DNA of 36,574 bases from an uncultured Chlorobiaceae bacterium (lineage in GTDB: Bacteria > Bacteroidota > Chlorobiia > Chlorobiales > Chlorobiaceae). The DNA lies in contig CAJAIK010000008.1 in assembly GCA_903939765.1 (NCBI GenBank), positions 1 to 36,574 of the forward strand, given 5' to 3'. The translations under genes were made by a program, and so were the position numbers. Below, one piece after another: positions 23,050-36,574 of the stretch. The notes beneath the pieces are model-generated. The model was not told the DNA's origin and ran no database searches. It saw only the letters and a program-made list of their open reading frames with translations. How positions within the stretch are numbered: the first letter of the stretch is position 1; each line of letters opens with the position of its first letter.

Positions 23050-26000
23050 TCATTTCATCTCATCGGAATTAAGGATATTGTAAACTGCTGTGGAGAGCGA
23101 TTTTGTGCTGAAGGGTTTCTGGATAAAGTTGACACCACTGTCAATGACGCTGTTGTTGGCAATAACGTCGGCCGTGAAGCCTGACATAAAGAGCGTTTTA
23201 AGCTTTGGCCGGTATACTCGAAGCTTTTTGGATAGCTCGTATCCGTTCATCTCCGGCATGATCACATCCGTTAACAGCAGCTCAATCGTTCCGTTATAAT
23301 TTTTAACGGTCATGAGCGCTTCCGTGGGTGTGGCTGCTGCAAGCACATGATAGCCGCTACGCTCAAGCAGGAGTTTACAGAGGTTCAGAATAGGTTGCTC
23401 ATCTTCCACAAGCAGAATGGTCTGATGTCCTTTAGGCGTCAATTGCTCAGGCTGGGCTTTCTGATCAACGTTCGACAGAGATCTGAAGAGGGGCAGATGA
23501 ATCGTGATGGTTGTTCCCTTGCCTGGTTCACTCTGGCATTCGATTGTGCCGTTATTCTGTTTTACAATACCGTAGACCATGGACAATCCAAGCCCTGTCC
23601 CTTTGCCCAGCTCTTTTGTGGTAAAAAACGGCTCGAAAATATGCTCAAGATCGTTTGGATCAATACCACATCCATTATCATGAACGGAAAGCGTCACATA
23701 CTCTACGAAGCGATCCTCAGCGCCGGAGACTTCGCTGGCGATTATGGGAGCAGAGAGGCTTCCGCTTTCGATAGTGATTGTACCGTTACCGGTTATGGCA
23801 TCACGAGCGTTGACACAGAGGTTGACAAGAATCTGGTCTATCTGCGACGGATCGATGTTTATCCAGGAGTTATTGCAGTCAGGAATCCATACCAGCGAGA
23901 TATGTTCACCGATGAGGCGCCGCAGCATGGGAAGCAACTCTCCGACGGCGATGTTCAATTCAAGAACTTTTGGAATGACAATCTGCTTTCGGGCAAAGGC
24001 GAGGAGTTGCCGGGTCAGATTGGCCGAACGGGTCGCTGCCTGGTGGATGGCCTCAAGATCACCATAAACTGACTCGGAAGGGTCAAAGAGTTCAAGGGCC
24101 ATTTCGGAGTGGGCGAGAATAAGCGTCAGCATATTGTTGAAGTCATGGGCTATCCCCCCGGCCAGCCTTCCTACCATCTCCATTTTCTGCGACTGCTGAA
24201 GCTGAATTTCAAGTTTTGATCTCTCCACCTCAGTCCGCTTGCGATCCGTGACATCAATAAATGATCCGGCAATAAAATCAGTCTCTCCATTTGCATTAAA
24301 GACGATTTTTGCTGTGTTACTGAGCGTAGCAACGGTACCATCCATGAGTAAAAAATCTGCCTCAAAACTGTTGACATGACCATGCTTAAAAAGAAGATCC
24401 CGGAATCGCTGACCTTCTTCAGGGTGAACGTAGGATTTTCGCGTATCCTGGGCAAACCATGCCTCCCGCTCTGATTTCTTGCACCTGGCAAGATCGAGGC
24501 AACGTTGGTTTGCTGCGATTACTTTTCCGTCCATGGTCGACTGGTAGAGTCCAATCGGAACACTCTCAAACAATTCTCGATAATTTTGCTCACTTGCCTG
24601 CAGAGCTTGCTCGCTTTGAATCCGTTCCAGTTCTCCGGATGCACGAATTGAAACCATTTTCAGCATTGTTTCTGCAAACTTGCGATTTACAAGCGGGCGT
24701 TGACTAATAACGGCAATCAGACCGATTGGTTGCCCGGAATGGTTCCACAGTGTTACACCAACATAACTTTCTGCTCGCAGATCCCGGAGAACCTGATCGC
24801 GGGGAAAAAGTTGACACACACGTGCCGGAAAACAACAGACATCCTTGCCAATAACTTCACCACAGGGAGTGTCTTCCAGGTTGTACACAACATTATCTTC
24901 AAAATGGCCATCGCTCCAGACTGCCAGCGTTCTGGCCGTCAATCCATCAACATCAAGACTGTCGATGCAGACAAAGTTCATATTGAGGCATTCGGCGATA
25001 TGTCGGGCAAGTGCATTAAAAAAAGGCTCTTTTTGTGCAAGATAGGTTGATGAAGAGAGAAACACCTGTATATCCTCAATTTTTTTCCTCTCAGAGATGT
25101 CAATACCTATACCGATCAGAAACGGATTGCCCTCCATAATTATTCGGCGGCCTGTCATCAGGTACCACCGAAATTCGGGTCCGCCATGAACAAGTACTCT
25201 TCCTTCCACATTTTCTTCAAGTCCATACTCAAGCACATTCCTGATTTTTTCCTGGACGAGCGCCCGATCTTCCGGATGAATGGTGGAGATGGCCAGAACT
25301 TCCCGCATCTCATTTTCCGGTTTTCCGACAATCTTATCCCGCTGGTAGTTATTCCACCCGGTATAGTAACCGTCTGTGCCTACGATATAAAAAGAGCCAG
25401 GAATACTGTCGATAATGGTTTTGCTGAAAGCCTGCTCGTTTTGCCCGATCTTTTGGGCCATTTTCAGTTTGGTAACCTCAATAAAAATTCCAATGTATCG
25501 GTTAACCTCACCGTCATCTTCTTTGAACGGCGTGCCTTTCATCATAACCCAACGTTTTTGGCCCGTCATATCCTTGACACGCCACTCAACGGTAAACTCC
25601 TCCCCATGTTCTACAGCATTCAGGACTATTTGTTCTACACGTTCTCTCTCTTCATCAGCGATTGATTGTTTCCATACCTCGTATGTTGCCTCGCAGGAGA
25701 AGGGTTCCAAACCAAGCAGACGCCAGAGTTCATTCGACCACATTGCGCGGTTGCTCTGTAAATCCCACTCCCAACTTCCGGAATGGGTTGCATCGATAAT
25801 GAGGCACTGGCGTTCATTCGTGACAAGAAGGGACTGCTCAATCTTTTTTTGTTTGCTGATATCCGACAGAATGGTTCTGCATGTATGTTCGTTATCATTG
25901 ATGACCGCTTCAATGCGCACGGTTTTCTGGCTGAGTGTGCCGTTGTCCGTCACGGAAAGTATTACCTCGCAATAGTTTGGCTCTTTTCGGCTGAACACTC

Positions 26001-26403
26001 TCTCCAGCAGTGCAGCGAACGTCAGGCGGTCTTCATGAACAATAAAGCTATTCAACCGTTTACCGCTCAAGCGCGAGCGTGTGCTATCAAGAATCGTTGC
26101 AGCAGTGAGGTTCAGCTCGATTATCCTGCTGTCCGGTTCAAGCGTCAGGTATCCCAATGGGGCGAAGTCATAAAGATCGGTGTACCGTTTCAGACTTTTT
26201 TCCAGTTCTTCTTTGGACTCGATCAGTTCTTGCTGATGAATTTCGAGTTCGATCTGGTGAACCGCCAGTTCATGGATCAATTGGAGCATTTCCTCGGGTG
26301 AAGAGGAAATACTGATGGTTTTTAGTTGACTTTTTTTCAGGCTCTGTTCAGCACGGGAGCGCAATTCAGAAAAATCATCAGTCGGGGTGATGTTTTGCGT
26401 CAT
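23050..26403 (-). CDS. Hybrid sensor histidine kinase with PAS, GAF and receiver domains
   Basis: 1117 residues with no membrane helix, so probably cytosolic. An N-terminal helix (about 30-75, [30 protein letters not shown]) leads into four PAS/PAC units: about 75-190, 195-315, 325-440 and 610-730. Between the third and fourth is a GAF domain (about 450-600), with several Cys ([21 protein letters not shown]). The dimerisation helix is [18 protein letters not shown] (phospho-His about 752). ATPase N-box [11 protein letters not shown] and G-box [13 protein letters not shown] follow. A receiver domain fills about 1000-1115 ([30 protein letters not shown], Asp about 1045, FIQKPFS Lys). No separate response regulator or DNA-binding partner lies next to it. 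The signal is unknown; heme or flavin in a PAS domain is possible. Confidence 0.9.
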
Positions 26404-26506
26404 GAGCGTTTATTCAGGAATCAGGGGCGTTTATTTCAAAAAATGTCGAGAATTGACCTGTTTTTTCATCTCCTTCCTGTGAACGGTTTGTGGTCGTGAC
26501 GTTAAT

Positions 26507-26896
26507 CTATCGTGTCTTCTGATCCTGATGATGGGCAATGCCGATAACAAAACCGTTAACAGGCTTGCCGAGCGTAAGGCAAACAATGCAGACAATATAC
26601 CCATCCGACTGCTGAAGCAGAATACCAACGGGCATGGTGTCAATCAAAAATCGGAAATTTTTCTCAATCTCTCGCAGACTTTCCTCCAGTTTTTTTGCGA
26701 AAGTGATATCATTAAAGGTAATTACCAGTCCGTTAATGCGGTTTTCATGTGTACGGTAAGGCATGATTTTGACCGTAAACCAACGATTGTTACTTGCAGA
26801 AACCTGTTTTTCACTGAAAACAAGAGTATGAAGAACCTTGCGGGCCTCGTCAATCAGTGCAGGATATTGGCTGTCATTTAAAAATTGGCACCTCAA
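26507..26896 (-). pseudogene. Decayed CheR/PAS-type fragment
   Basis: The frame YPALIDEARKVLHTLVFSEKQVSASNNRWFTVKIMPYRTHENRINGLVITFNDITFAKKLEESLREIEKNFRFLID resembles the PAS module and linker that follow the CheR methyltransferase domain in CheB/CheR fusion proteins. There is no methyltransferase domain upstream: the frame is closed by a TAA about 70 bp before this start, and only a TTG start is available. Downstream a new PAS begins (LIDTMPVGILLQQSDGYIV) but then turns into unrelated sequence (CIVCLTLGKPVNG..) and stops. Both ends are thus missing. It sits just upstream of the hybrid kinase on the same strand, as CheB/CheR-PAS and kinase genes often do, and suggests a deleted partner. Confidence 0.55.
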
Positions 26897-27069
26897 TAAT
26901 TGATAAAGCCTGAGAGTCAGGGTGAGCTGTGATTGTAGCTTGTAGAGTGTTGTGATTTTGGTTTACTATCGTTCTGTCGCTCTCATTTTTTGTTGAATGT
27001 TCAACTTTGAGTCCGGTTTGTTACTTTACCGTACATAACATATTGTTTCTACAATCAACAGGCTTGATA

Positions 27070-30000
27070 ATGGTGAACCCTTCGACGATTATTCCGCGTG
27101 AGATTCCTTTTAATTATACATCTGCCGGAGATCGACAGGCGATATCGTTCCTGCTTGGCCCGGATATTGTGCAGATGCTTGATGAACTGCGCGATCTGAG
27201 GGTTACCGGAAGGTCTGCGCGGTTGCTTATGGGTATTATCGGTGAAATTCTTATTCATCGCCGTAATCCCTATCTTTTTCAGGAGCTGGTGAACTCTTCG
27301 GCTCGCCGTCGCCGCCTTTTTGAGCGGGCCTTTGCCGAGCTTGATACTATTGCCGATATGGCGAATGGTGAGGCAAGGGTATCCTCCATTGTGGGAGCTG
27401 TGCGTGAGCAGCTTGAGCGCTTTCGCTCGGCAGTTGAGAAGACGCCTGAACTCAGGCGCCGCATGAAGCGCGAACTTGGTGCTGTCGCGGGGGTGAAAAA
27501 TGTTCATTTTGATCCATTTTCTCTTGCGGCTCATGCAACTGACGCTACGGACTGGAGGTTGCATCTCCCTGTCGCAGTGGTGACGCCTGACCAGGAGTCG
27601 AAGGTAGCGCCGCTGATTACGGCTATCGCGGCACTCGGGCTTAACATTATTCCGCGTGGTGCAGGGACAGGGCTGACCGGCGGGGCGGTACCGTTGCGAT
27701 CGAAATGTGTGATTATCAATACGGAAAAACTTAACCGTGTCCGGGGTATTTCGGTGCGTGATTTTCAACTGGAAAATGGGCAGATATCGCAGGCTTCGGT
27801 CATTGAGCTTGAAGCGGGCGTTATTACTGAACGTGCGATGGAGGAGGCTGATGAACACGGTCTTGTCTTTGCCACTGATCCAACCAGTGAGTGGGCTTGT
27901 ACAGTCGGGGGAAATATTTCCGAAAATGCGGGGGGAAAGATGGCTGTCCGCTGGGGCACCTGTATCGACAACCTGCTTGAGTGGCGTATGGCGATGCCTT
28001 CGGGTGAAAATTGGACGGTCAAGCGCGCTGATCACCAGTTGCGCAAAATCATGCATGAGGACAGGGTTCTTTTTGAGGTGTGGAATGAGTCGGGCAAGAG
28101 AATCGATCGCATTGAATTGTCTGGCACCGATATCCGCAAAAAAGGGCTCTGGAAGGATATTACCAACAAGGCGCTCGGTGGAGTACCGGGTCTTCAGAAG
28201 GAGGGGACTGACGGGGTGATTACTTCAGCTCTTTTTGTCCTCTATCCGAAGTATCCTGAAAAAAGAACGCTTTGCCTTGAATTTTTCGGGCCTGACATGG
28301 ATGAGGCCAGCCGGGTGATTCTTGAGCTTTCGAAAATTTTTCCGCTTCATTCCGAAAATCGTGAGGCACTGCTTGCGCTGGAGCATTTTGATGATGAGTA
28401 TATCCGCGCGATTGACTACAAGGTGAAAGCGCCCCGTGCCCAGACGCCGAAGGCGGTGCTGCTGATTGATATCGCAGGCAACAGTGCCGCGGAGGTGATG
28501 AATGGTGTGGAGCGTGTGGAGAGACTGCTTGAGCCCCATCCCAACACACTGATGTTTCTGGCCAGAGATAATGCGGAGGCGATCCGCTTCTGGGCTGATC
28601 GTAAAAAGCTTGGAGCTATTGCACGGCGGACCAATGCGTTCAAGCTGAACGAGGATATTGTCATTCCGCTTGAGGCACTGGCCGAGTTCTCCCGTTTTAT
28701 CGACACACTCAATATTGAGGAGGAGCGGTTCGCCCAGCGTCGATTTGTGGAGCGTGCACGCGACCTCATCGCGACGTCAACGGTAAGCGGGGATGGCGGG
28801 CAGTTTGCCTCAAAGATACCTGCTGGGGTTGAGCTTTGCCGCATGTTCAGCTCGAAAATTGATGCTGAGCCGGAAGAGTCGCTCCGTTCACTTGCTGTTG
28901 TGCAGGAGCTCCGCAGTGAGCTTGGAGAGCTGGTTCAGGGTTATCCTGATATGGAGGCCGCCCTTGATGGCGCCTATAACTATGTGCGCGACCGCCGTAT
29001 CGTGCTGGCGACTCACATGCATGCGGGTGACGGTAATGTTCATGTCAATGTACCTGTACTTTCCAACGACAGGCCAATGCTTGAGCGGACGGACAAGGTG
29101 ATTGACCATGTCATGGAGAGGGTGGTCTCGCTTGGCGGGGTCGTGTCGGGCGAGCACGGTATCGGTGTCACCAAGCTGAAATATCTCGATCCGGCCATTG
29201 TTGAAGAGCTTTCGAGGTACCGTCGCCGGGTTGATCCGAAAGGGATCATGAACCCAGGCAAGCTTGACGATTATGAGGTTCTTGATTATATCTTTACCCC
29301 ATCATTCAATCGGCTTGAGCTTGAGGCGCATATTCTCCGTCGAGCCCAGATTGAGGAGCTGTCAAAAAAGGTAGATTACTGTATCCGGTGCGGCAAGTGC
29401 AAGATGGACTGCTGTGTCTATTATCCGTCGCGGGGAATGTTCTATCATCCACGCAACAAGAATCTTGCGATAGGCTCGCTGATTGAGGCGCTGCTTTTTG
29501 ACGCGCAGCGTGAGCGTACGACCGACTTTGCCCTGCTGAAGTGGCTTGAAGAGGTGGCCGATCACTGTACCATCTGTCACAAATGTCTTAAACCCTGTCC
29601 GGTCGATATTGACAGTGGGGAGGTATCGGTGCTGGAGCGTGAAATACTTTCGGAGTGGGGTTTCAAGCACTCTTCACCGGTTACGGAGTTGACCCTGCAT
29701 TATCTTGAAAGCCGTTCACCCGCCTTTAATGCGCTTTTCCGCCGTGCTGTCCTGCGCATCGGCGGAGCCGTTCAGCGGGCAGGCAGCAAGCTCTCTTTAT
29801 CTATCCAGCCGGAACATGATGCTCCGGCACTCTATCCTCTCAGTCTGCTCCGCTCTGCGGTGCCTCCGGTACCTGAGGGTACACTGCGTGATTTTCTGCC
29901 GGAGTGTGGAGCTGATCAGGTGCTTGTTTTTGAGCCTGCCGGAGAGGTGGTCAGTAACGTTTTTTATTTCCCCGGATGTGGTTCCGAGCGCCTGAACTCC

Positions 30001-30702
30001 GCCATCTCAATGGCGGCACTCCATCTGCTCCTTGAGCTTGGTGCGAGGGTTGTGCTTCCGCCTCCCTTTCTCTGCTGTGGCTTTCCGGCGCATGTCAATG
30101 CCAAGAGTGACCATTATTCGAGCATTGTGTTGCGCAATACCGTGATCTTCAGCCAAATCAGGGAGATGTTCTCCTATCTGGATTTTGATGCCTGTGTCGT
30201 GACGTGCGGCACCTGCATGGAGGGGCTTGATGCGATTGAAACCGGCAGGGTATTTGGCGGAAAGATTGTCGATATCGCGGCTTATGGCCTTGGTAAAGGG
30301 CTGAAGCTTGAAGGGGAGGAAGATTATCTTTACCACGCACCTTGTCACGATTCGCTCTCCGGGCATGCGCGTGAAACCCTGCGCAATCTGGGCGGGTTTG
30401 GCCGAGTGACCGCTGTACCGCACTGCTGTTCCGAGGCTGGTACGCTGGCCCTGTCGCGCCCTGATATTACCGATTCCATGCTTCACCGCAAAAGGGAGGC
30501 CATTGTGGAGCTTATGCATGGACGAAAAAAGGCGGTTGTGTTGACCAACTGCCCCTCGTGCGTGCAGGGGCTGGGAAGAAATCTTGATCTTGGCCTGGAG
30601 CCACAGCATCTTGTTGTGGCTCTGGCTGAAAAACGGTCGGGCCCGGGCTGGATGGAGCTTCTGCGTAAACAGGTATCACGGGGAACAGCAGTCAGCTTTT
30701 AG
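27070..30702 (+). CDS. Large FAD/iron-sulfur dehydrogenase (DUF3683-type, D-lactate/glycolate dehydrogenase-like)
   Basis: 1210 residues from the ATG at 27070 (an in-frame start at 27007 has no family-like sequence). Residues 1-130 form a helical N-terminal region (DUF3683-like). The FAD-linked oxidase domain follows, with phosphate-binding PRGAGTGLTGGAVPL near residue 195, DPTSEWACTVGGNISENAGG and the C-terminal HMHAGDGNVHVNVPV/GEHGIGVTK motifs. Two ferredoxin-like clusters follow: CIRCGKCKMDCCVYYP (near 770) and CTICHKCLKPCP (near 833). The C-terminal third carries two CCG-type motifs (YFPGCGSERLN/FLCCGFPAH and CHDSLSGHA/PHCCSEAG). The fused GlpC/GlcF- plus GlcD-like architecture suggests oxidation of a 2-hydroxy acid with electrons passed via FeS clusters to quinone or another carrier; no membrane helix is seen. 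It converges on the cytochrome operon with a 4-bp gap. Confidence 0.8.
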   Translation: MVNPSTIIPREIPFNYTSAGDRQAISFLLGPDIVQMLDELRDLRVTGRSARLLMGIIGEILIHRRNPYLFQELVNSSARRRRLFERAFAELDTIADMANGEARVSSIVGAVREQLERFRSAVEKTPELRRRMKRELGAVAGVKNVHFDPFSLAAHATDATDWRLHLPVAVVTPDQESKVAPLITAIAALGLNIIPRGAGTGLTGGAVPLRSKCVIINTEKLNRVRGISVRDFQLENGQISQASVIELEAGVITERAMEEADEHGLVFATDPTSEWACTVGGNISENAGGKMAVRWGTCIDNLLEWRMAMPSGENWTVKRADHQLRKIMHEDRVLFEVWNESGKRIDRIELSGTDIRKKGLWKDITNKALGGVPGLQKEGTDGVITSALFVLYPKYPEKRTLCLEFFGPDMDEASRVILELSKIFPLHSENREALLALEHFDDEYIRAIDYKVKAPRAQTPKAVLLIDIAGNSAAEVMNGVERVERLLEPHPNTLMFLARDNAEAIRFWADRKKLGAIARRTNAFKLNEDIVIPLEALAEFSRFIDTLNIEEERFAQRRFVERARDLIATSTVSGDGGQFASKIPAGVELCRMFSSKIDAEPEESLRSLAVVQELRSELGELVQGYPDMEAALDGAYNYVRDRRIVLATHMHAGDGNVHVNVPVLSNDRPMLERTDKVIDHVMERVVSLGGVVSGEHGIGVTKLKYLDPAIVEELSRYRRRVDPKGIMNPGKLDDYEVLDYIFTPSFNRLELEAHILRRAQIEELSKKVDYCIRCGKCKMDCCVYYPSRGMFYHPRNKNLAIGSLIEALLFDAQRERTTDFALLKWLEEVADHCTICHKCLKPCPVDIDSGEVSVLEREILSEWGFKHSSPVTELTLHYLESRSPAFNALFRRAVLRIGGAVQRAGSKLSLSIQPEHDAPALYPLSLLRSAVPPVPEGTLRDFLPECGADQVLVFEPAGEVVSNVFYFPGCGSERLNSAISMAALHLLLELGARVVLPPPFLCCGFPAHVNAKSDHYSSIVLRNTVIFSQIREMFSYLDFDACVVTCGTCMEGLDAIETGRVFGGKIVDIAAYGLGKGLKLEGEEDYLYHAPCHDSLSGHARETLRNLGGFGRVTAVPHCCSEAGTLALSRPDITDSMLHRKREAIVELMHGRKKAVVLTNCPSCVQGLGRNLDLGLEPQHLVVALAEKRSGPGWMELLRKQVSRGTAVSF

Positions 30703-30706
30703 CCGC

Positions 30707-31852
30707 CTAATCGTCATCTTCGCCGTCACCTCCCCGTTCGCCTTCCCGGCTTCCATTGCGATGGCATTTTATGCAGTTCTGGTAGTTATAAATACCCTCT
30801 TCACGATGCACCGCCGCCATATTTGATGGCGTGTGCTCGTGGCAGCCGTAGCAGGTATACTGCTGGTAATTGCCCGGAGTGGTGTGGCAGGTTTTGCAGC
30901 TTGCCTGATGATCACGGTCGAGCCTGAAATAGCGGTCATGGTTGAATGTCGCGGGTTTCCATTTTGTCGTGTTGTGGCACTTCGAGCAAGCCGCCGTCAC
31001 CTCTCTATGGAGGTTGTCACTGGGCTGGTCAGCCTTGTGGCAACTGATGCACTCTTTTCCTGAAGCGACAAACTTTTTGTGATCGAATGTCGCGGGTTTC
31101 CATTTTGTCGTGTTGTGGCATTTCGAGCAGGCCGCCGTCACCTCTCTATGAAGGTTGTCACTGGGCTGGTCAGCCTTGTGGCAACTGATGCACTCTTTTC
31201 CTGAAGCGGCAAACTTTTTGTGATCGACGGTTGCCGGTTCCCATCGGTTTGTGCTATGGCAGTCGGCGCAGGATGCCGTTGCATCCTTGTGCAGCCGATT
31301 ATTGGGCTGGTCAGCCTTGTGGCAAGTGATGCAGCTCTTTTGGATCGATGCGGCAAGCCGTTTGTGATCAAATGTTGCTGGCTCCCATGCACGGATAGTA
31401 TGGCACTCGCTGCAATTTCCTGTTGCATAGCGATGCAGATTGTCTGCCGGTTTTTGATTTTTATGACAGGCAGCACAGTTTTTCTGGAGCGATATCGTCA
31501 GCGACGCATGCCTGAAGGTTTTGATTGCTTTTGATGCTTCAGCTCCCTTGTGGTCAGTATGGCACTCTATACAGGAGCCCGCTGAGAGCCCTTTGTGAAA
31601 AAGGACCTTCGATGAATCTTTTGGAAGGGAGATTCCGGCGACATTTTTGACTCCGATGAATCCCTCTTTGTGACAGTTGACGCACTGTACTGATGTTACT
31701 CCTTTGAATGGAGTGTGGCAACTCAGGCACTCTCTTTTCAGTGCATGATGGCCCTTCATGAGGGTGCCGGGGTCGAGCAGCACATCGGGAAATCGTATGG
31801 CAAGTGCTGCAAGAATGATGAGAGAAACAATAAAGGTATAAAGTGGTTTCAT
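30707..31852 (-). CDS. 14-heme c-type cytochrome with tandem diheme repeats
   Basis: 381 residues. An uncleaved-looking N-terminal helix (about 5-22) anchors it; there is no lipobox. There are 14 CxxCH motifs: CLSCH, CVNCH, CIECH, CAACH, CSECH, CITCH, CADCH, CISCH, CSKCH, CISCH, CSKCH, CKTCH, CYGCH, CIKCH. Four successive 47-48-residue units each hold two CxxCH plus two further His (in NLHRE- and FDHKKF-like positions), enough for bis-His ligation of both hemes. Two of the units are near-identical at DNA level. The tail is acidic (GERGGDGEDDD). It should lie in the periplasm as a linear heme wire. The gene upstream on the same strand (cytochrome b-like) is 10 bp away, so the two form an operon. 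Partner and substrate are unknown; similar cytochromes serve anaerobic respiration or extracellular electron transfer. Confidence 0.88.
   Translation of the reverse strand: MKPLYTFIVSLIILAALAIRFPDVLLDPGTLMKGHHALKRECLSCHTPFKGVTSVQCVNCHKEGFIGVKNVAGISLPKDSSKVLFHKGLSAGSCIECHTDHKGAEASKAIKTFRHASLTISLQKNCAACHKNQKPADNLHRYATGNCSECHTIRAWEPATFDHKRLAASIQKSCITCHKADQPNNRLHKDATASCADCHSTNRWEPATVDHKKFAASGKECISCHKADQPSDNLHREVTAACSKCHNTTKWKPATFDHKKFVASGKECISCHKADQPSDNLHREVTAACSKCHNTTKWKPATFNHDRYFRLDRDHQASCKTCHTTPGNYQQYTCYGCHEHTPSNMAAVHREEGIYNYQNCIKCHRNGSREGERGGDGEDDD
30945..31226. repeat. Tandem 141-bp duplication inside the 14-heme cytochrome gene
   Basis: Positions 30945-31085 and 31086-31226 align without gaps with only four mismatches by eye. 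The unit is 141 bp, exactly 47 codons, encoding one diheme module. A third, more diverged unit continues beyond 31226. The high identity indicates recent duplication or gene conversion. Confidence 0.85.
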
Positions 31853-31862
31853 CAGGCTATTA

Positions 31863-32438
31863 TTACCAGTTCCAGAAGAAAAGTATAGAGAAAATATGTG
31901 TCAGGGTTAATGCGATTAAAAGGGATACCATGGGCATGTGCACCATTCTCCATTGTTCAAGCGTCTTGATGGTCAGGCTGTCCCAGTAGTGTTGCTGCTC
32001 AATCTCCGCATCCACGGCGTCATTGATTCCCAGTTGTTTCATACTTATTTTCACCTCTTCCTTGACCTTTTTGAGCAGATATTGCCCAACATGGCCACTG
32101 GCGGTTACAACCATCATCAGAAAGGTCGCCGCCCATGGTAAAATTGCATTGAAATGGATTCCTGAATGAACCATGATCATCAGGGTTCCTATCCAACCGG
32201 TATTACAGTGGAGTTTGAGAAAAAATTTGAGCGCACCGTTGTTGAAAACCTTTTTTTTTCGGGCAGAATAGCCAAAGGAGAGTGCAAAAAAAAGAGTTCC
32301 GGCAATGCCAAGATATCGCCCGATCCACACAAGATGAGCAACATGCAGGATGTAGTCAAGTGAAATTGCGGCAATAATCAGTAGCAGATAAGAGATGGTC
32401 AGCGGTAATGTTCGTTGTACAAGGACAGATTTCCACAT
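31863..32438 (-). CDS. Five-helix cytochrome b-like membrane protein
   Basis: 191 residues with about five hydrophobic helices (10-30, 41-58, 75-95, 98-120, 165-190). Helix 3 carries His77 and His91 (LHCNTGWIGTLMIMVH), and helix 5 carries His167 and His181 (VHMPMVSLLIALTLTH). Both pairs are 14 residues apart, the spacing seen in the two heme-ligating helices of cytochrome b of bc complexes. Further His occur at 32, 35, 95 and 116. I infer a diheme b-type protein passing electrons between the quinone pool and the 14-heme cytochrome encoded 10 bp downstream. Ferric-reductase-like or cytochrome b561-type families are alternatives. A charged loop at 122-150 faces the cytosol or periplasm. No clear ribosome binding site. 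Confidence 0.65.
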   Translation of the reverse strand: MWKSVLVQRTLPLTISYLLLIIAAISLDYILHVAHLVWIGRYLGIAGTLFFALSFGYSARKKKVFNNGALKFFLKLHCNTGWIGTLMIMVHSGIHFNAILPWAATFLMMVVTASGHVGQYLLKKVKEEVKISMKQLGINDAVDAEIEQQHYWDSLTIKTLEQWRMVHMPMVSLLIALTLTHIFSILFFWNW

Positions 32439-32734
32439 GGTTCAACACGGTTAAAGTATATCATGATTTACAATCGGAAAAAGATACCTTTTGCCGGTTA
32501 AAAGAGTCTGAAAAGAGCCTTAAAAATTGATTAAAATTAACTGATAAAAGAGGCACAACAATTTTCAGTATGACGAGATATGGCAAGTTCAATAGATTGT
32601 TTTTTCCTCATCGAGAGCTTCTGCTTATCTGATCTCCGGCGTGAGCTTAAAATAATTTATCTCTTCTTCTCTTGTTTTTGTAAGTTCTTTCGATGAGTCG
32701 CTTCGATAATTGGAAAATATCACAGGGGGTGGTT
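32439..32734. other. AT-rich intergenic region between divergent genes
   Basis: About 300 bp separating the cytochrome operon (leftward) from the small membrane protein (rightward), so it should hold promoters for both. No gene, strong hairpin or recognisable operator is seen. A rightward start at 32693 in frame with the next gene is possible but lacks a ribosome binding site. Confidence 0.4.
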
Positions 32735-32971
32735 ATGGATGAACAAAAATCTCATGAAGAGCAGAAGGTTGTCGTTACGTGTCAGGTTACTGATATCCGT
32801 ATGCCCTTTTGGTCTATGGTTGTGTTTATGGTGAAGTGGGTATTTGCGAGTATTCCCGCCATGATTATTTTTTCTGTGGTGGCCGGGCTTGTGATGGCGG
32901 TTATGAGTCTCCTGTGTGGTTCTTTATGGGGATTTCATGGTATGTATCACGAGTTCAGATTGCCATTCTGA
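32735..32971 (+). CDS. Small conserved membrane protein
   Basis: 78 residues from the ATG at 32735, which is preceded by GGGGGTGG at about 5 bp; the upstream ATG at 32693 has no such site. A hydrophilic start (MDEQKSHEEQKVVVTCQVTDIRMP) leads to FWSMVVFMVKWVFASIPAMIIFSVVAGLVMAVMSLL, one long or two short helices, then a short polar end. Small proteins with the MPFWSMV-FMVKW-ASIPA core are, as I recall, found in many bacteria as uncharacterised membrane proteins. Function unknown. The aminotransferase starts 45 bp later, so co-transcription is possible. Confidence 0.6.
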   Translation: MDEQKSHEEQKVVVTCQVTDIRMPFWSMVVFMVKWVFASIPAMIIFSVVAGLVMAVMSLLCGSLWGFHGMYHEFRLPF

Positions 32972-33015
32972 ATCTTGAATATCTATCCTGTTTCGTTTAA
33001 ATAAAATATAAACTC

Positions 33016-34173
33016 ATGGGGCTGACCTTAAGTGACCGCCATGCCTGCGTGCTTCAGTCGGAAATTCGCAATATGTCGATTGAGTGCAATCGGGTCGGTG
33101 GTATCAATCTTGCACAGGGGGTTTGCGATACTCCTGTGCCCGAATCTGTTCTGCAAGGTGCGGTTAAGGCGATCGTGCAGGGGATAAACAGCTACACCCA
33201 TTATGCCGGTTTGCCCCGGCTGCGCGAGGCGCTTGCCCTCAAGCAGAAGAGGTTTTCGGCTGTAACGTTTGACCCCGAGAGTGAGATCATTGTCAGTGCC
33301 GGAGCAACGGGCGCCTTGTATTGCGCGTTTCAGGCCCTGCTCAATGCGGGCGACGAGGTGATTGTGTTTGAGCCCTTCTACGGGTATCACATCACTTCAC
33401 TGCAAGCTGTGGAGGCTGTACCGGTATATTTCCCGCTGAATCCACCGGAGTGGTCGTTCAGCGCTCATGAGCTGGAGCGTCTTGTTACTTCCCGCACCCG
33501 TGGCATTATTGTTAATACTCCGGCCAATCCCTCCGGAAAGGTATTCTCGTCTGACGAACTCGAAATTATTGCCGGTTTTGCTGAGCGCTACGACCTCTTT
33601 GTCTTTACTGATGAAATCTATGAGCATTTTGTGTATGGCGATAATGTCCATCGCTCTTTTTCCTCCCTGCCGGGGATGAGGGAGCGCACCATTACCATAT
33701 CAGGGTCTTCAAAAACATTCAGTGTCACGGGGTGGCGGATAGGTTATCTTTTTTGCGATGCCCGGTGGGCACAGGCGATTGGTTATTTTAATGATCTGGT
33801 CTATGTGTGCGCGCCAGCCCCTCTGCAGGCCGGTGTCGCCAGGGGATTGCAGGAGCTTGGTGACGATTACTACCAAAACCTTGCTGTTGCATATCAGGCA
33901 AAGCGCGACCGGTTCTGTGATGCGCTTTTTCATGCCGGACTGCATCCCTATATCCCTGATGGAGCCTATTATGTACTCGCCGATGTTTCCCGTATTCCTG
34001 GTATTTCAGGCAAGGAGAGGGCGATGCACATTCTACAAAAAACAGGTGTAGCCTGCGTTCCTGGTGGTGCTTTTTATCACGACAAGAGGGGCGAAAAGAT
34101 GGTTCGTTTTTGTTTTGCCAAGGAGGATGCGGTGCTTGACGAAGCCATTCGTCGTTTTCAGCTTCTTGCCTGA
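33016..34173 (+). CDS. Class I/II PLP-dependent aminotransferase
   Basis: 385 residues, fold type I. The substrate/cofactor regions appear in order: NLAQGVCDTPVP near the N-terminus, SAGATGALYCAFQALLNAGDEVIVFEPFY (PLP-phosphate region), NTPANPSGKVFS with the Asn, FTDEIYEHFVYG with the pyridine-binding Asp and Tyr, SGSSKTFSVTGWRIGY with PLP-binding Lys233, and the C-terminal MVRFCFAK Arg that binds the alpha-carboxylate. The closest relatives by motif are aspartate/methionine/kynurenine-type aminotransferases; amino-acid preference cannot be read from sequence. Cytosolic. No pathway partners next to it. Confidence 0.88.
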   Translation: MGLTLSDRHACVLQSEIRNMSIECNRVGGINLAQGVCDTPVPESVLQGAVKAIVQGINSYTHYAGLPRLREALALKQKRFSAVTFDPESEIIVSAGATGALYCAFQALLNAGDEVIVFEPFYGYHITSLQAVEAVPVYFPLNPPEWSFSAHELERLVTSRTRGIIVNTPANPSGKVFSSDELEIIAGFAERYDLFVFTDEIYEHFVYGDNVHRSFSSLPGMRERTITISGSSKTFSVTGWRIGYLFCDARWAQAIGYFNDLVYVCAPAPLQAGVARGLQELGDDYYQNLAVAYQAKRDRFCDALFHAGLHPYIPDGAYYVLADVSRIPGISGKERAMHILQKTGVACVPGGAFYHDKRGEKMVRFCFAKEDAVLDEAIRRFQLLA

Positions 34174-34205
34174 ATTTTTTAAACTTAAACCGGGGAGGAA
34201 CAGGT

Positions 34206-35030
34206 ATGGTCAGAAAAGGGTTGATCAGGGCTGCTGGATTTGTTGTACTATTGTTTTCTCTGGCTGGCTGCCTGGAGATCAGTACGATAGTCAGCGTTAA
34301 ACCGGATGGAACAGGAACTGTTTCTGAGCGGATGTTGATGAGCAAGAGCTCTTTCAGCGAGATGGTCCTTACTGATGGAAAGAAAAAAGGGCAGTCTGGC
34401 CAGCTTCCTGATAACGAAGCATTTGAAAAGAAGTCGCAGGGGATGGGTGAAGGCGTGCGTTTTGTTTCGGTTCGTCCGGTTGTAACGAAAACGCAGTCAG
34501 GATATGAGGCGCTCTATTCTTTCAGGGATATTAATCTGTTGCAGGTTAATAGTGCTCCTGATACCGGTGTTTCAGCCGATTCAACTTCCGGTGAGGAATC
34601 CCCGAAAAAGAAAAAGCAGTATGTCCGTTTCTCCCTGAAAGAGGGTTCTCCATCGTGGCTTGTCATTATGATGGATCAGGATAAGGAGGCGTCATTATCT
34701 CGTTCTCCTGCTGCAGCAAAGCCTCAGCAAAATCCTGAGCAACTGAAAATGGCAACCAGTATCATGAAACAGTTTCTCAAGGGAATGAGAGTGTTTATGG
34801 CCGTTGATGTCAATGGATCGATACTCAGTACCAATGCGACGTATCGAAAAGAAAAAAGAATTACGCTTATGGATGTGGATTTTGACAAGCTGTTAGCCAA
34901 TCCTAAACAGTTTGCATCATTTGCAGCTCTTGGCTCCGATCCTTCTTCTCAGGAGATGCAGAAAATCATGAAAAAAATTCCGGGAATCAAACTGGAGACG
35001 CAAAAAGAGGTTGATGTCAGCTTTCAGTAG
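34206..35030 (+). CDS. Lipoprotein of unknown function
   Basis: 274 residues with a GGGGAGGA-type ribosome binding site. The N-terminal hydrophobic segment and lipobox LAGC (Cys22) mark a lipoprotein; Leu-Glu after the Cys makes outer-membrane sorting plausible. The mature part begins ISTIVSVKPDGTGTVSERMLMSK, a pattern I associate with small secreted beta-rich proteins. It is then polar and Lys-rich, ending in a helical region with DFDKLLANPKQFASFAALG. No catalytic motif is recognised. It stands 32 bp after the aminotransferase and before rnpB on the other strand. Confidence 0.7.
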   Translation: MVRKGLIRAAGFVVLLFSLAGCLEISTIVSVKPDGTGTVSERMLMSKSSFSEMVLTDGKKKGQSGQLPDNEAFEKKSQGMGEGVRFVSVRPVVTKTQSGYEALYSFRDINLLQVNSAPDTGVSADSTSGEESPKKKKQYVRFSLKEGSPSWLVIMMDQDKEASLSRSPAAAKPQQNPEQLKMATSIMKQFLKGMRVFMAVDVNGSILSTNATYRKEKRITLMDVDFDKLLANPKQFASFAALGSDPSSQEMQKIMKKIPGIKLETQKEVDVSFQ

Positions 35031-35068
35031 TAATTGCAGAAGGCTTTTTGTAACAGGATATAAAAAAA

Positions 35069-35475
35069 GCTGAAACCGAAAGCTATAAGCCGAATTCTGT
35101 TCCTTAACCGGATACCCGGTTAAGGCTGCAGCCATTTATCTGATGCGGCTTACCCGAGAACTCTCCTTTCGGAATTGAACGGGCCGCTCTTTTCCCCGGG
35201 GGGAAAAGTCCTCTTATTTAGCCTTGCTTCGGGGAGGTTTGCCAAGCACATTCCATTACTGCAATGTCTGGTGGTCTCTTACACCCCCGTTTCACCCTTA
35301 CTCCGGCCATCCGAAGCGGTCTGTTTTCTGTTGCACTCTCTGTGACAAGCGGCTTGCACCCTTATCCCCGGACTTGAGCCTTGCGACTCTCGACCGGCAC
35401 CCTGCCCTGTGAAGTTCGGACTTTCCTCCGTGTAACCTTGCGGTTGGACGGCGACTGCACACTTGCGGTTTCAGT
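35069..35475 (-). ncRNA. rnpB: RNase P RNA, type A
   Basis: On the minus strand the conserved P4 5' strand GGAGGAAAGTCCGAACT (35413-35429) and the matching 3' element ACAGAATTCGGCTTA (35086-35100) are present. Between them lie ACAGGGCAGGGTG, GTAAGGGTGAAACG and AAGAGACCACC blocks, in the usual order. The ends pair as P1: CTGAAACCG (5', near 35474) with CGGTTTCAG (3', 35070-35078). Length about 405 nt is normal. The RNA is the catalytic subunit that trims tRNA 5' leaders. A T-run on the minus strand (35062-35069) follows P1 and probably ends transcription. Confidence 0.95.
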
Positions 35476-35528
35476 TTTACAAAGAACGATCATGAAAAAA
35501 CGGTCATATTTTTGAACGCATCTCAGTT

Positions 35529-36329
35529 TTAATCTTCAGCTTCTTCAAATAGTCGTTCGTGAACAACGATGCGTCCGCACGACTCGCAAAGATAGAATCC
35601 ACCCTGAACAATCAGTGTATGACGATTGGTCGGTACCCTCGTATTGCAACCGGAACAGGCGTTGCGGTTCAGCTTTACGACAGCATTATTCAAGGTGCCG
35701 CTTCTGAGGTGATCATATTTGTCGAGCAGCCTTTTTGCTTCAGTAGCAATAAGCAACCGCTGCGCCGTCACCTTTTTTTTCAGCGAACTGACATCTTCGG
35801 CAGTTTCGATAACAATGCTGTCAAGTTCCTCTTTTTTCTGGTCAGTCTGTTTTTTCAGATCCTGAAGTTGCTGATGCAGGACATCATCAGGCATCATCTC
35901 TTCGGTAATTTCGTCATAGCGATTCTCGGCAATGAGCAGCCGCCCTTTTTTCTGGATATCCTGTGATCGCTGTATGGCGTGGACAATATCCTGAAGCTGG
36001 ATTTCTGCCTGCGCTATCTCTTTCTCTTCGTATTCGATCTGCTTTGAGAGTGCGTCATACTCCTTGTTGTTGCGGGCGAGTGTCTGCTTCTCCTTAAAGT
36101 TCAGGATTTTGTTTTTACACTCATTGATCGTTTCGTGGAGATGTGAGCGTGCTTTCAGGTGCTCGTCAGCTATCTTCTTTCGTGATTCGATCTGGCGGTT
36201 GGTAAATACCAGATCTTCGTCAAGGGCATCAATTTCCTCTGGCAACCCTTTTTGAAGGCTGATGATGTTTTCTATCTGGTTGTCGAGGTGCTGAAGCCTG
36301 ACGAGCAGGTTTATTTTTGTATGATCCAC
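35529..36329 (-). CDS. C4 zinc-ribbon coiled-coil protein (CdsZ/DUF164-like)
   Basis: 266 residues. About residues 5-210 form a long antiparallel coiled coil (LVRLQHLDNQIENIISLQKGLPEEIDALDEDL..., LKKQTDQKKEELDSIVIE...). The C-terminus carries four zinc-binding Cys: CSGC (Cys225, 228) and CESC (Cys248, 251), with the typical RNACSGCNTRVP and FYLCESCGRIV context. Widespread and often encoded near rnpB/GTP cyclohydrolase-like genes in many phyla; proposed to bind nucleic acid or act in secretion-associated roles, but the function is not settled. It reads leftward towards rnpB, with about 50 bp between them. Confidence 0.85.
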   Translation of the reverse strand: MDHTKINLLVRLQHLDNQIENIISLQKGLPEEIDALDEDLVFTNRQIESRKKIADEHLKARSHLHETINECKNKILNFKEKQTLARNNKEYDALSKQIEYEEKEIAQAEIQLQDIVHAIQRSQDIQKKGRLLIAENRYDEITEEMMPDDVLHQQLQDLKKQTDQKKEELDSIVIETAEDVSSLKKKVTAQRLLIATEAKRLLDKYDHLRSGTLNNAVVKLNRNACSGCNTRVPTNRHTLIVQGGFYLCESCGRIVVHERLFEEAED

Positions 36330-36360
36330 TACTCCTGATATTTTTGGATTATTTAAAGCA

Positions 36361-36393
36361 ATAAAAAATGCACCCTCTCAAGAAAAGGTGCAT
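36361..36393 (-). terminator. Terminator after tRNA-Leu
   Basis: On the minus strand ATGCACC (36387-36393 arm) pairs with GGTGCAT (36368-36374 arm) and is followed by a T-run. It lies about 100 bp after the tRNA and 32 bp before the zinc-ribbon gene, ending tRNA transcription. Confidence 0.8.
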
Positions 36394-36491
36394 ACTCGTG
36401 CGTTGTATGTGAAAAACCTGGTCTGAGATGAATCGACTGATGATATGTTGTTGAGCGTATTCACTTCTATATCGTCTGGGAAGATTGTTTG

Positions 36492-36573
36492 TGCCCGAAA
36501 GGAGACTCGAACTCCTACACCTTGCGGCGCGCGTCCCTGAAACGCGTGCGTCTACCAATTCCGCCATTCGGGC
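36492..36573 (-). tRNA. tRNA-Leu (anticodon CAG)
   Basis: On the minus strand it starts GCCCGAA, pairs with TTCGGGC at the 3' end, and shows a Leu-type D arm (GCGGAATTGGTAGACGC). The anticodon arm is CGCGT-TTCAGGG-ACGCG, giving CAG, followed by a long variable arm and a T arm with GTTCGAGTC. About 82 nt with discriminator A73; CCA is not encoded (CAA follows). Reads CUG codons. The tRNA ends one base before the window edge. Confidence 0.95.
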
Positions 36574-36574
36574 A

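Follow-up and report, generated by a model that had tools for sequence, protein, structure and literature searches.

A conserved gene pair of Chlorobiaceae, encoding a predicted diheme membrane protein and a multiheme cytochrome c, as a candidate electron conduit across the inner membrane

In a 36,574-nucleotide stretch of contig CAJAIK010000008.1 from an uncultured Chlorobiaceae bacterium (the whole stretch is called the window here), a short membrane protein with two pairs of widely spaced histidines is encoded beside a cytochrome with 14 heme-binding motifs. The locus raises the question of what the membrane partner is related to, and of where electrons might travel between the two proteins. 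The features of the pair, whose products are referred to as the b protein and the c protein, are as follows:

31863..32438, minus strand: b protein gene, 191 aa, predicted diheme b; five-helix membrane protein, FRD/MsrQ-like at the profile level and a compact relative of the PCC3 inner-membrane protein
32208..32210, minus strand: His77 codon, helix 3; predicted heme ligand, cytoplasmic side
32166..32168, minus strand: His91 codon, helix 3; predicted heme ligand, periplasmic side
31938..31940, minus strand: His167 codon, helix 5; predicted heme ligand, cytoplasmic side, within WX3HX13H
31896..31898, minus strand: His181 codon, helix 5; predicted heme ligand, periplasmic side
31853..31862, minus strand: intergenic gap of 10 bp; both genes on the same strand, the b-then-c order being kept in relatives
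30707..31852, minus strand: c protein gene, 381 aa; N-terminally anchored cytochrome of the c7/class III type with 14 CxxCH and an acidic C-terminal tail
30944..31341, minus strand: 141-bp unit (47 aa, two hemes) repeated in tandem within the c gene; two copies 97% identical

The original prediction had described a 191-residue protein with His77/His91 and His167/His181, each pair spaced i, i+14, encoded 10 bp upstream of a membrane-anchored cytochrome with 14 CxxCH motifs. The histidines and the gap (31853-31862) lie as described, on the minus strand, exactly 14 motifs were counted, and the N-terminus of the c protein carries a hydrophobic stretch that resembles a membrane anchor. The pair stands alone in the window, its upstream neighbour being divergent and its downstream neighbour convergent. 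A 1231-aa fusion protein (DUF3683, GlcD-like FAD oxidase, 4Fe-4S and CCG domains) is encoded at 27007-30702, convergent with the module.

The AlphaFold model of the b protein (mean pLDDT 79.6, pTM 0.72) has five helices, so that the predicted fold bears out the helix count first proposed. His77, His91, His167 and His181 are invariant when the window protein is aligned with 67 homologues taken from loci of a GTDB contig scan (68 sequences in total, identity down to 41%). Further invariant columns of the same alignment include H32, H95, D28, W82, W102, W163 and the SGXXG of helix 4; once distant homologues of ~300 aa are added, the four ligand candidates H77, H91, H167 and H181 are left as the conserved histidines. 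Helices 3 and 5 each bear HX13H, helix 5 also bears WX3H, and helix 4 has SGXXG. Its charge pattern is positive-inside, with loops 2 and 4 predicted to be cytoplasmic, and His77 and His167 would therefore lie near the cytoplasm and His91 and His181 near the periplasm. The four invariant histidines and a profile match to the FRD superfamily make the predicted diheme character likely, with heme binding and the pairing of the hemes deduced from the protein sequence.

No curated family model recognises the b protein: Pfam and NCBIfam scans with the single window sequence gave no credible match, and a PDB sequence search with it gave none. At the profile level only, it is kin to the superfamily of ferric reductases, MsrQ and NOX (PF01794, FRD). 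Its profile, which is shallow (Neff 2.6), was aligned by hhalign to PF01794 proteins of the phylum with a probability of 87% in local mode (E 4e-6, 136 columns) and 93% in global mode (E 5e-8), the two modes spanning 136-153 columns, and all four histidines fell in register with the FRD ligands. Sub-threshold PF01794 matches fall on the b gene of three genomes and occur in 10 of the 68 members (best E 7.7e-5), where DUF4405 and cytochrome b561 models also appear; the best b-gene match, at 23.3 bits, does not reach the PF01794 gathering score of 28 bits. The b protein is also homologous to the PCC3 inner-membrane protein (phmmer E 1e-7 to 3e-11; hhalign probability 95%), and the PCC3 protein set by itself had no match to FRD.

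The ligand spacing had originally been taken to tie the protein to cytochrome b of bc complexes, as a stripped-down form of it. The spacing i, i+14 is indeed shared, and HX13H is common to the bc-type and FRD superfamilies alike (PMC5566968). Against proteins with the N-terminal domain of bc-type cytochrome b (PF13631), the b profile reached an hhalign probability of 5.9% over 25 columns (0.0% in global mode), compared with the 87-93% obtained for FRD, and here the prediction is not supported. Searches of the structural model by Foldseek and VIA-align returned mainly generic helical bundles, and the matches to cytochrome b561 (Z 9.6) and to b6f cytochrome b (a weak alignment, Z 8.4 at 15% identity) stand amid unrelated ones. 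As had been noted from the start, neither a Rieske protein, nor cytochrome c1, nor the rest of cytochrome b was found among the listed neighbour genes or the nearest six proteins scanned. Descent from a bc-type cytochrome b is accordingly very improbable. No relation to PF01292 (HydC/FdnI-like) proteins was found by hhalign either (probability 1.6%).

The c protein matches PF14522 (64.3 bits against a cut-off of 24.8) and PF02085 (62.1 against 22.9), and a PDB sequence search with it gave a weak match to the cytochrome c7-like chain 8k9e; its structural model is poor (mean pLDDT 65.8, pTM 0.39). Since it has 16 histidines beyond those of the 14 CxxCH motifs, bis-His ligation is possible for every c heme. 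The repeat unit of the window gene, 141 bp in tandem, encodes 47 aa with two CxxCH and two further histidines, and these copies suggest that heme number changes through duplication of a two-heme unit. The partners in relatives have 8, 10, 12, 14, 16, 18 or 20 hemes and nearly always an even number; the odd counts are two of 9 and one of 11, at least one of which is due to a stop-free extension. In most c proteins the C-terminal tail is acidic, frequently DD or DDD.

The pair is real, it is conserved, and it very probably has a function. Of 86 Chlorobiaceae genomes, 71 have a homologue of the b protein, as do 54 of the 65 that are of good quality; none was found in the 12 genomes searched from the rest of the class. 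The best 80 loci kept from the GTDB contig scan include Calditrichaceae (Calditrichota), KSB1, Spirochaetia (Spirochaetes), SAR324, Comamonadaceae, Azoarcus and Ignavibacteriaceae (Ignavibacteria), and the pair thus extends beyond Chlorobiaceae, across several phyla; a search of viral contigs gave no match. An automatic test placed the c gene directly after the b gene in 94 of 106 rows, and the remaining rows, read by eye, were overlapping genes missed by the test, or else copies that are frameshifted, truncated or cut by a contig end (L127, L130, L131; L and G numbers denote loci and genomes). Reading of the rows from the GTDB scan put a c gene directly after every intact b gene with downstream sequence, which shows that the pairing is not due to chance, and the linkage assumed in the original prediction holds at these intact loci. 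Frameshifted or truncated b genes occur at L127 and L130 and in genomes G066, G072 and G073, some of which have an intact copy elsewhere, and these damaged copies point to decay of the pair in some lineages. A core photosynthetic role was considered and rejected, since 11 of the 65 good-quality Chlorobiaceae genomes have no match to the b gene.

The neighbourhoods of the pair in relatives offer further clues. A membrane-anchored NAD(P)H/FAD/2Fe-2S reductase is encoded directly upstream in Azoarcus and one Comamonadaceae, and by analogy would be a natural partner for an FRD-type protein. In a Comamonadaceae MAG (L137:152-5947), the pair follows ORFs that by eye resemble ccoN/O, ccoP and ccoG. 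Some two dozen loci, KSB1 among them, have an OmpR-type regulator and a sensor kinase ahead of the pair on the same strand; for the one representative regulator/kinase pair scanned, the top NCBIfam models were heavy-metal sensor kinase and regulator families, with scores below their curated cut-offs. At L044:9597-10151 and similar Chlorobiaceae loci, a ~180-aa membrane protein of the DUF4405 type often comes before the regulator and kinase, and the N-terminal part of the kinase, probably periplasmic, contains a stretch rich in Asp. Of 27 genome loci, 14 have a CDF metal-efflux gene no more than 5 kb from the pair (0.33 expected), the 27 having been hand-picked for diversity and for having flanks and not being phylogenetically independent. 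The CDFs come from unrelated lineages (24-34% identity between them), and for the three tested MntE was the best among specific models, with scores below the MntE cut-off. Around the module in the window, neither two-component genes nor a CDF gene is present.

These metal-type neighbours suggest metals rather than core photosynthesis, and a metal role for the pair is plausible from the neighbour genes of its relatives. The fuller proposal is more tentative and, as a whole, rather unlikely: that the FRD-type diheme protein and its extensible heme wire form a metal-responsive transmembrane redox module, widespread in several phyla, which is switched on by heavy-metal-type two-component systems, sits beside MntE/FieF-like efflux pumps, and reduces or oxidises periplasmic metal ions (Mn, Fe or others).

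The general reading as a two-protein transmembrane conduit, with an FRD-type diheme b protein feeding a membrane-anchored periplasmic heme wire, is the probable one, and it upholds the electron conduit originally proposed, to which the tight genetic pairing lends weight. Helices 3 and 5 of the b protein would hold a stack of two b-hemes between them, one on His77/His167 near the cytoplasm and one on His91/His181 near the periplasm. Electrons would enter from menaquinol or, where the reductase adjoins, from the NAD(P)H:FAD/2Fe-2S protein, and would be passed at the periplasmic face to the anchored c cytochrome, in which bis-His hemes would form a chain, varied in length by duplication of the two-heme unit. 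The module might then work in the manner of MsrQ, FRE or NOX, with a heme wire replacing the usual acceptor. FRD proteins characterised so far move electrons outward. Quinone use, the outward direction and a metal substrate are what we infer for the pair.

The anatomy of the pair fits both directions, and in the converse arrangement Fe(II), a sulfur compound or some other periplasmic donor would reduce the c cytochrome, from which the b protein would take the electrons to menaquinone for photosynthesis or CO2 fixation. The presence of the pair in Chlorobium ferrooxidans (L095) is in keeping with this, as is the proposal that its PCC3 relatives are Fe(II)-oxidation conduits (PMC5566968), and the expression of a PCC3 inner-membrane gene rises during iron oxidation by Sideroxydans (PMC12442390). 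However, inward flow runs counter to the characterised FRD proteins (PMC8238504), and the pair occurs in most Chlorobiaceae, well past the known photoferrotrophs, while missing from the 11 good genomes mentioned above, which argues against a core donor route. An outer-membrane partner was not seen in this genome either. No porin or extracellular multiheme cytochrome is among the ORFs of window positions 26000-36574, and a genome search for c7-type multiheme cytochromes found only the c protein of the pair. A scan of the genome for closely spaced CxxCH motifs found a cluster only at the pair, with scattered single matches elsewhere near the control level. That no outer-membrane partner of the c7 type was seen weighs against extracellular transfer in this strain. 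Searches for a separate PCC3-type inner-membrane protein in this genome, C. ferrooxidans and G028 found none and returned the b gene, and inspection by eye of the sequence up to 8 kb from the C. ferrooxidans copy brought out no ORF resembling a porin. An inward conduit is thus possible but appears distinctly less probable than an outward one. In G025 (G025:C1:1355733-1357756), a 702-aa frame with c7-type matches adjoins a PF01292 cytochrome b match, perhaps a second and different b/c pair.

The two-component genes directly upstream in many relatives could also suggest that the pair reports the redox state of quinones or metals, or keeps periplasmic cofactors reduced. Such a sensing or maintenance role is improbable: 8-20 hemes and repeated growth of the wire suggest electron transport instead, and kinase genes are absent from many loci, including the window.

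Small b/c modules of this kind are candidates for linking the quinone pool with the periplasm in bacteria without a known extracellular pathway, and an FRD-type protein joined to a multiheme wire occurs in most green sulfur bacteria. Like MsrQ, ferric reductases and NADPH oxidases, the b protein is predicted to carry two b-hemes on the histidine pairs of two helices, and the route proposed for its electrons is the same, starting at quinol or an NAD(P)H flavoprotein and ending on the periplasmic side. It differs from that superfamily in falling below the Pfam cut-off and in having a multiheme c cytochrome as its partner. MsrQ-like proteins are two-heme carriers related to quinone-linked MsrQ, some of them fed by NAD(P)H, and are described with six helices (PMC8238504), one more than in the b protein. 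Geobacter CbcL and CbcBA are inner-membrane b/c cytochromes that lead from menaquinol to the periplasm, CbcBA being likened here by description; in CbcL, however, nine c-hemes are fused to a six-helix b part of the HydC/FdnI type (PMC6295460), whereas no PF01292 kinship was found for the b protein. Sideroxydans ircABCD was considered and rejected, being a different cluster with one- and two-heme cytochromes.

The closest counterparts are those of He et al. (2017). Their PCC3/PCC4 inner-membrane proteins have five helices, SGXXG and two WX3HX13H motifs (PMC5566968); the b protein matches the five helices, the SGXXG on TM4 and the WX3HX13H on TM5, and has F73 in place of the tryptophan on TM3. 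It thus shares with the PCC3 protein the same histidine pairs and SGXXG, whereas the latter has ~300 aa and a long loop before helix 5 and belongs to porin-cytochrome clusters; unlike PCC3, no porin or extracellular cytochrome was found near the pair. In Bacteroidota, relatives of ~290 aa adjoin cytochromes of 20 hemes and of 19 to 61 hemes, an arrangement in keeping with the PCC3 clusters in He et al. (PMC5566968). In these PCC3-like clusters (L053:12885-17297, L056-L060, L062), the ~290-aa homologue has a 2x4Fe-4S pyridine-nucleotide oxidoreductase in its vicinity, along with a 20-heme cytochrome and far larger ones (61 CxxCH in L057), and some include a TPR protein. At L053:5128-17297, a short b-c pair and PCC3-like genes are close together on one contig, with 34-heme and 19-heme cytochromes between them.

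Under 'Other multiheme cytochrome c', He et al. (2017) also described shorter conserved five-helix HX13H proteins, left unnamed, beside unassigned multiheme cytochromes (PMC5566968); the examples given there include Chlorobium ferrooxidans, where the pair meant is not necessarily the one described here. Five helices, two HX13H (helices 3 and 5) and an adjoining multiheme c gene of variable heme number are common to those pairs and the present kind, as are a further redox gene in many cases and the usual absence of a porin. The membrane protein gene is downstream of the c gene in He et al. and upstream here; lacking a porin, most of their pairs were regarded as less likely to transfer electrons outside the cell (PMC5566968). 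Most of the short proteins were reported to be without significant homology to PCC3 proteins (PMC5566968), whereas the present searches do connect this b protein to them. The pair has therefore been known in kind since 2017, its function being uncharacterised in that report. What is new here are the heavy-metal-type two-component genes upstream in several lineages and the nearby CDF gene, and if the metal link is true, a kind of gene pair unnamed since 2017 would gain a testable function.
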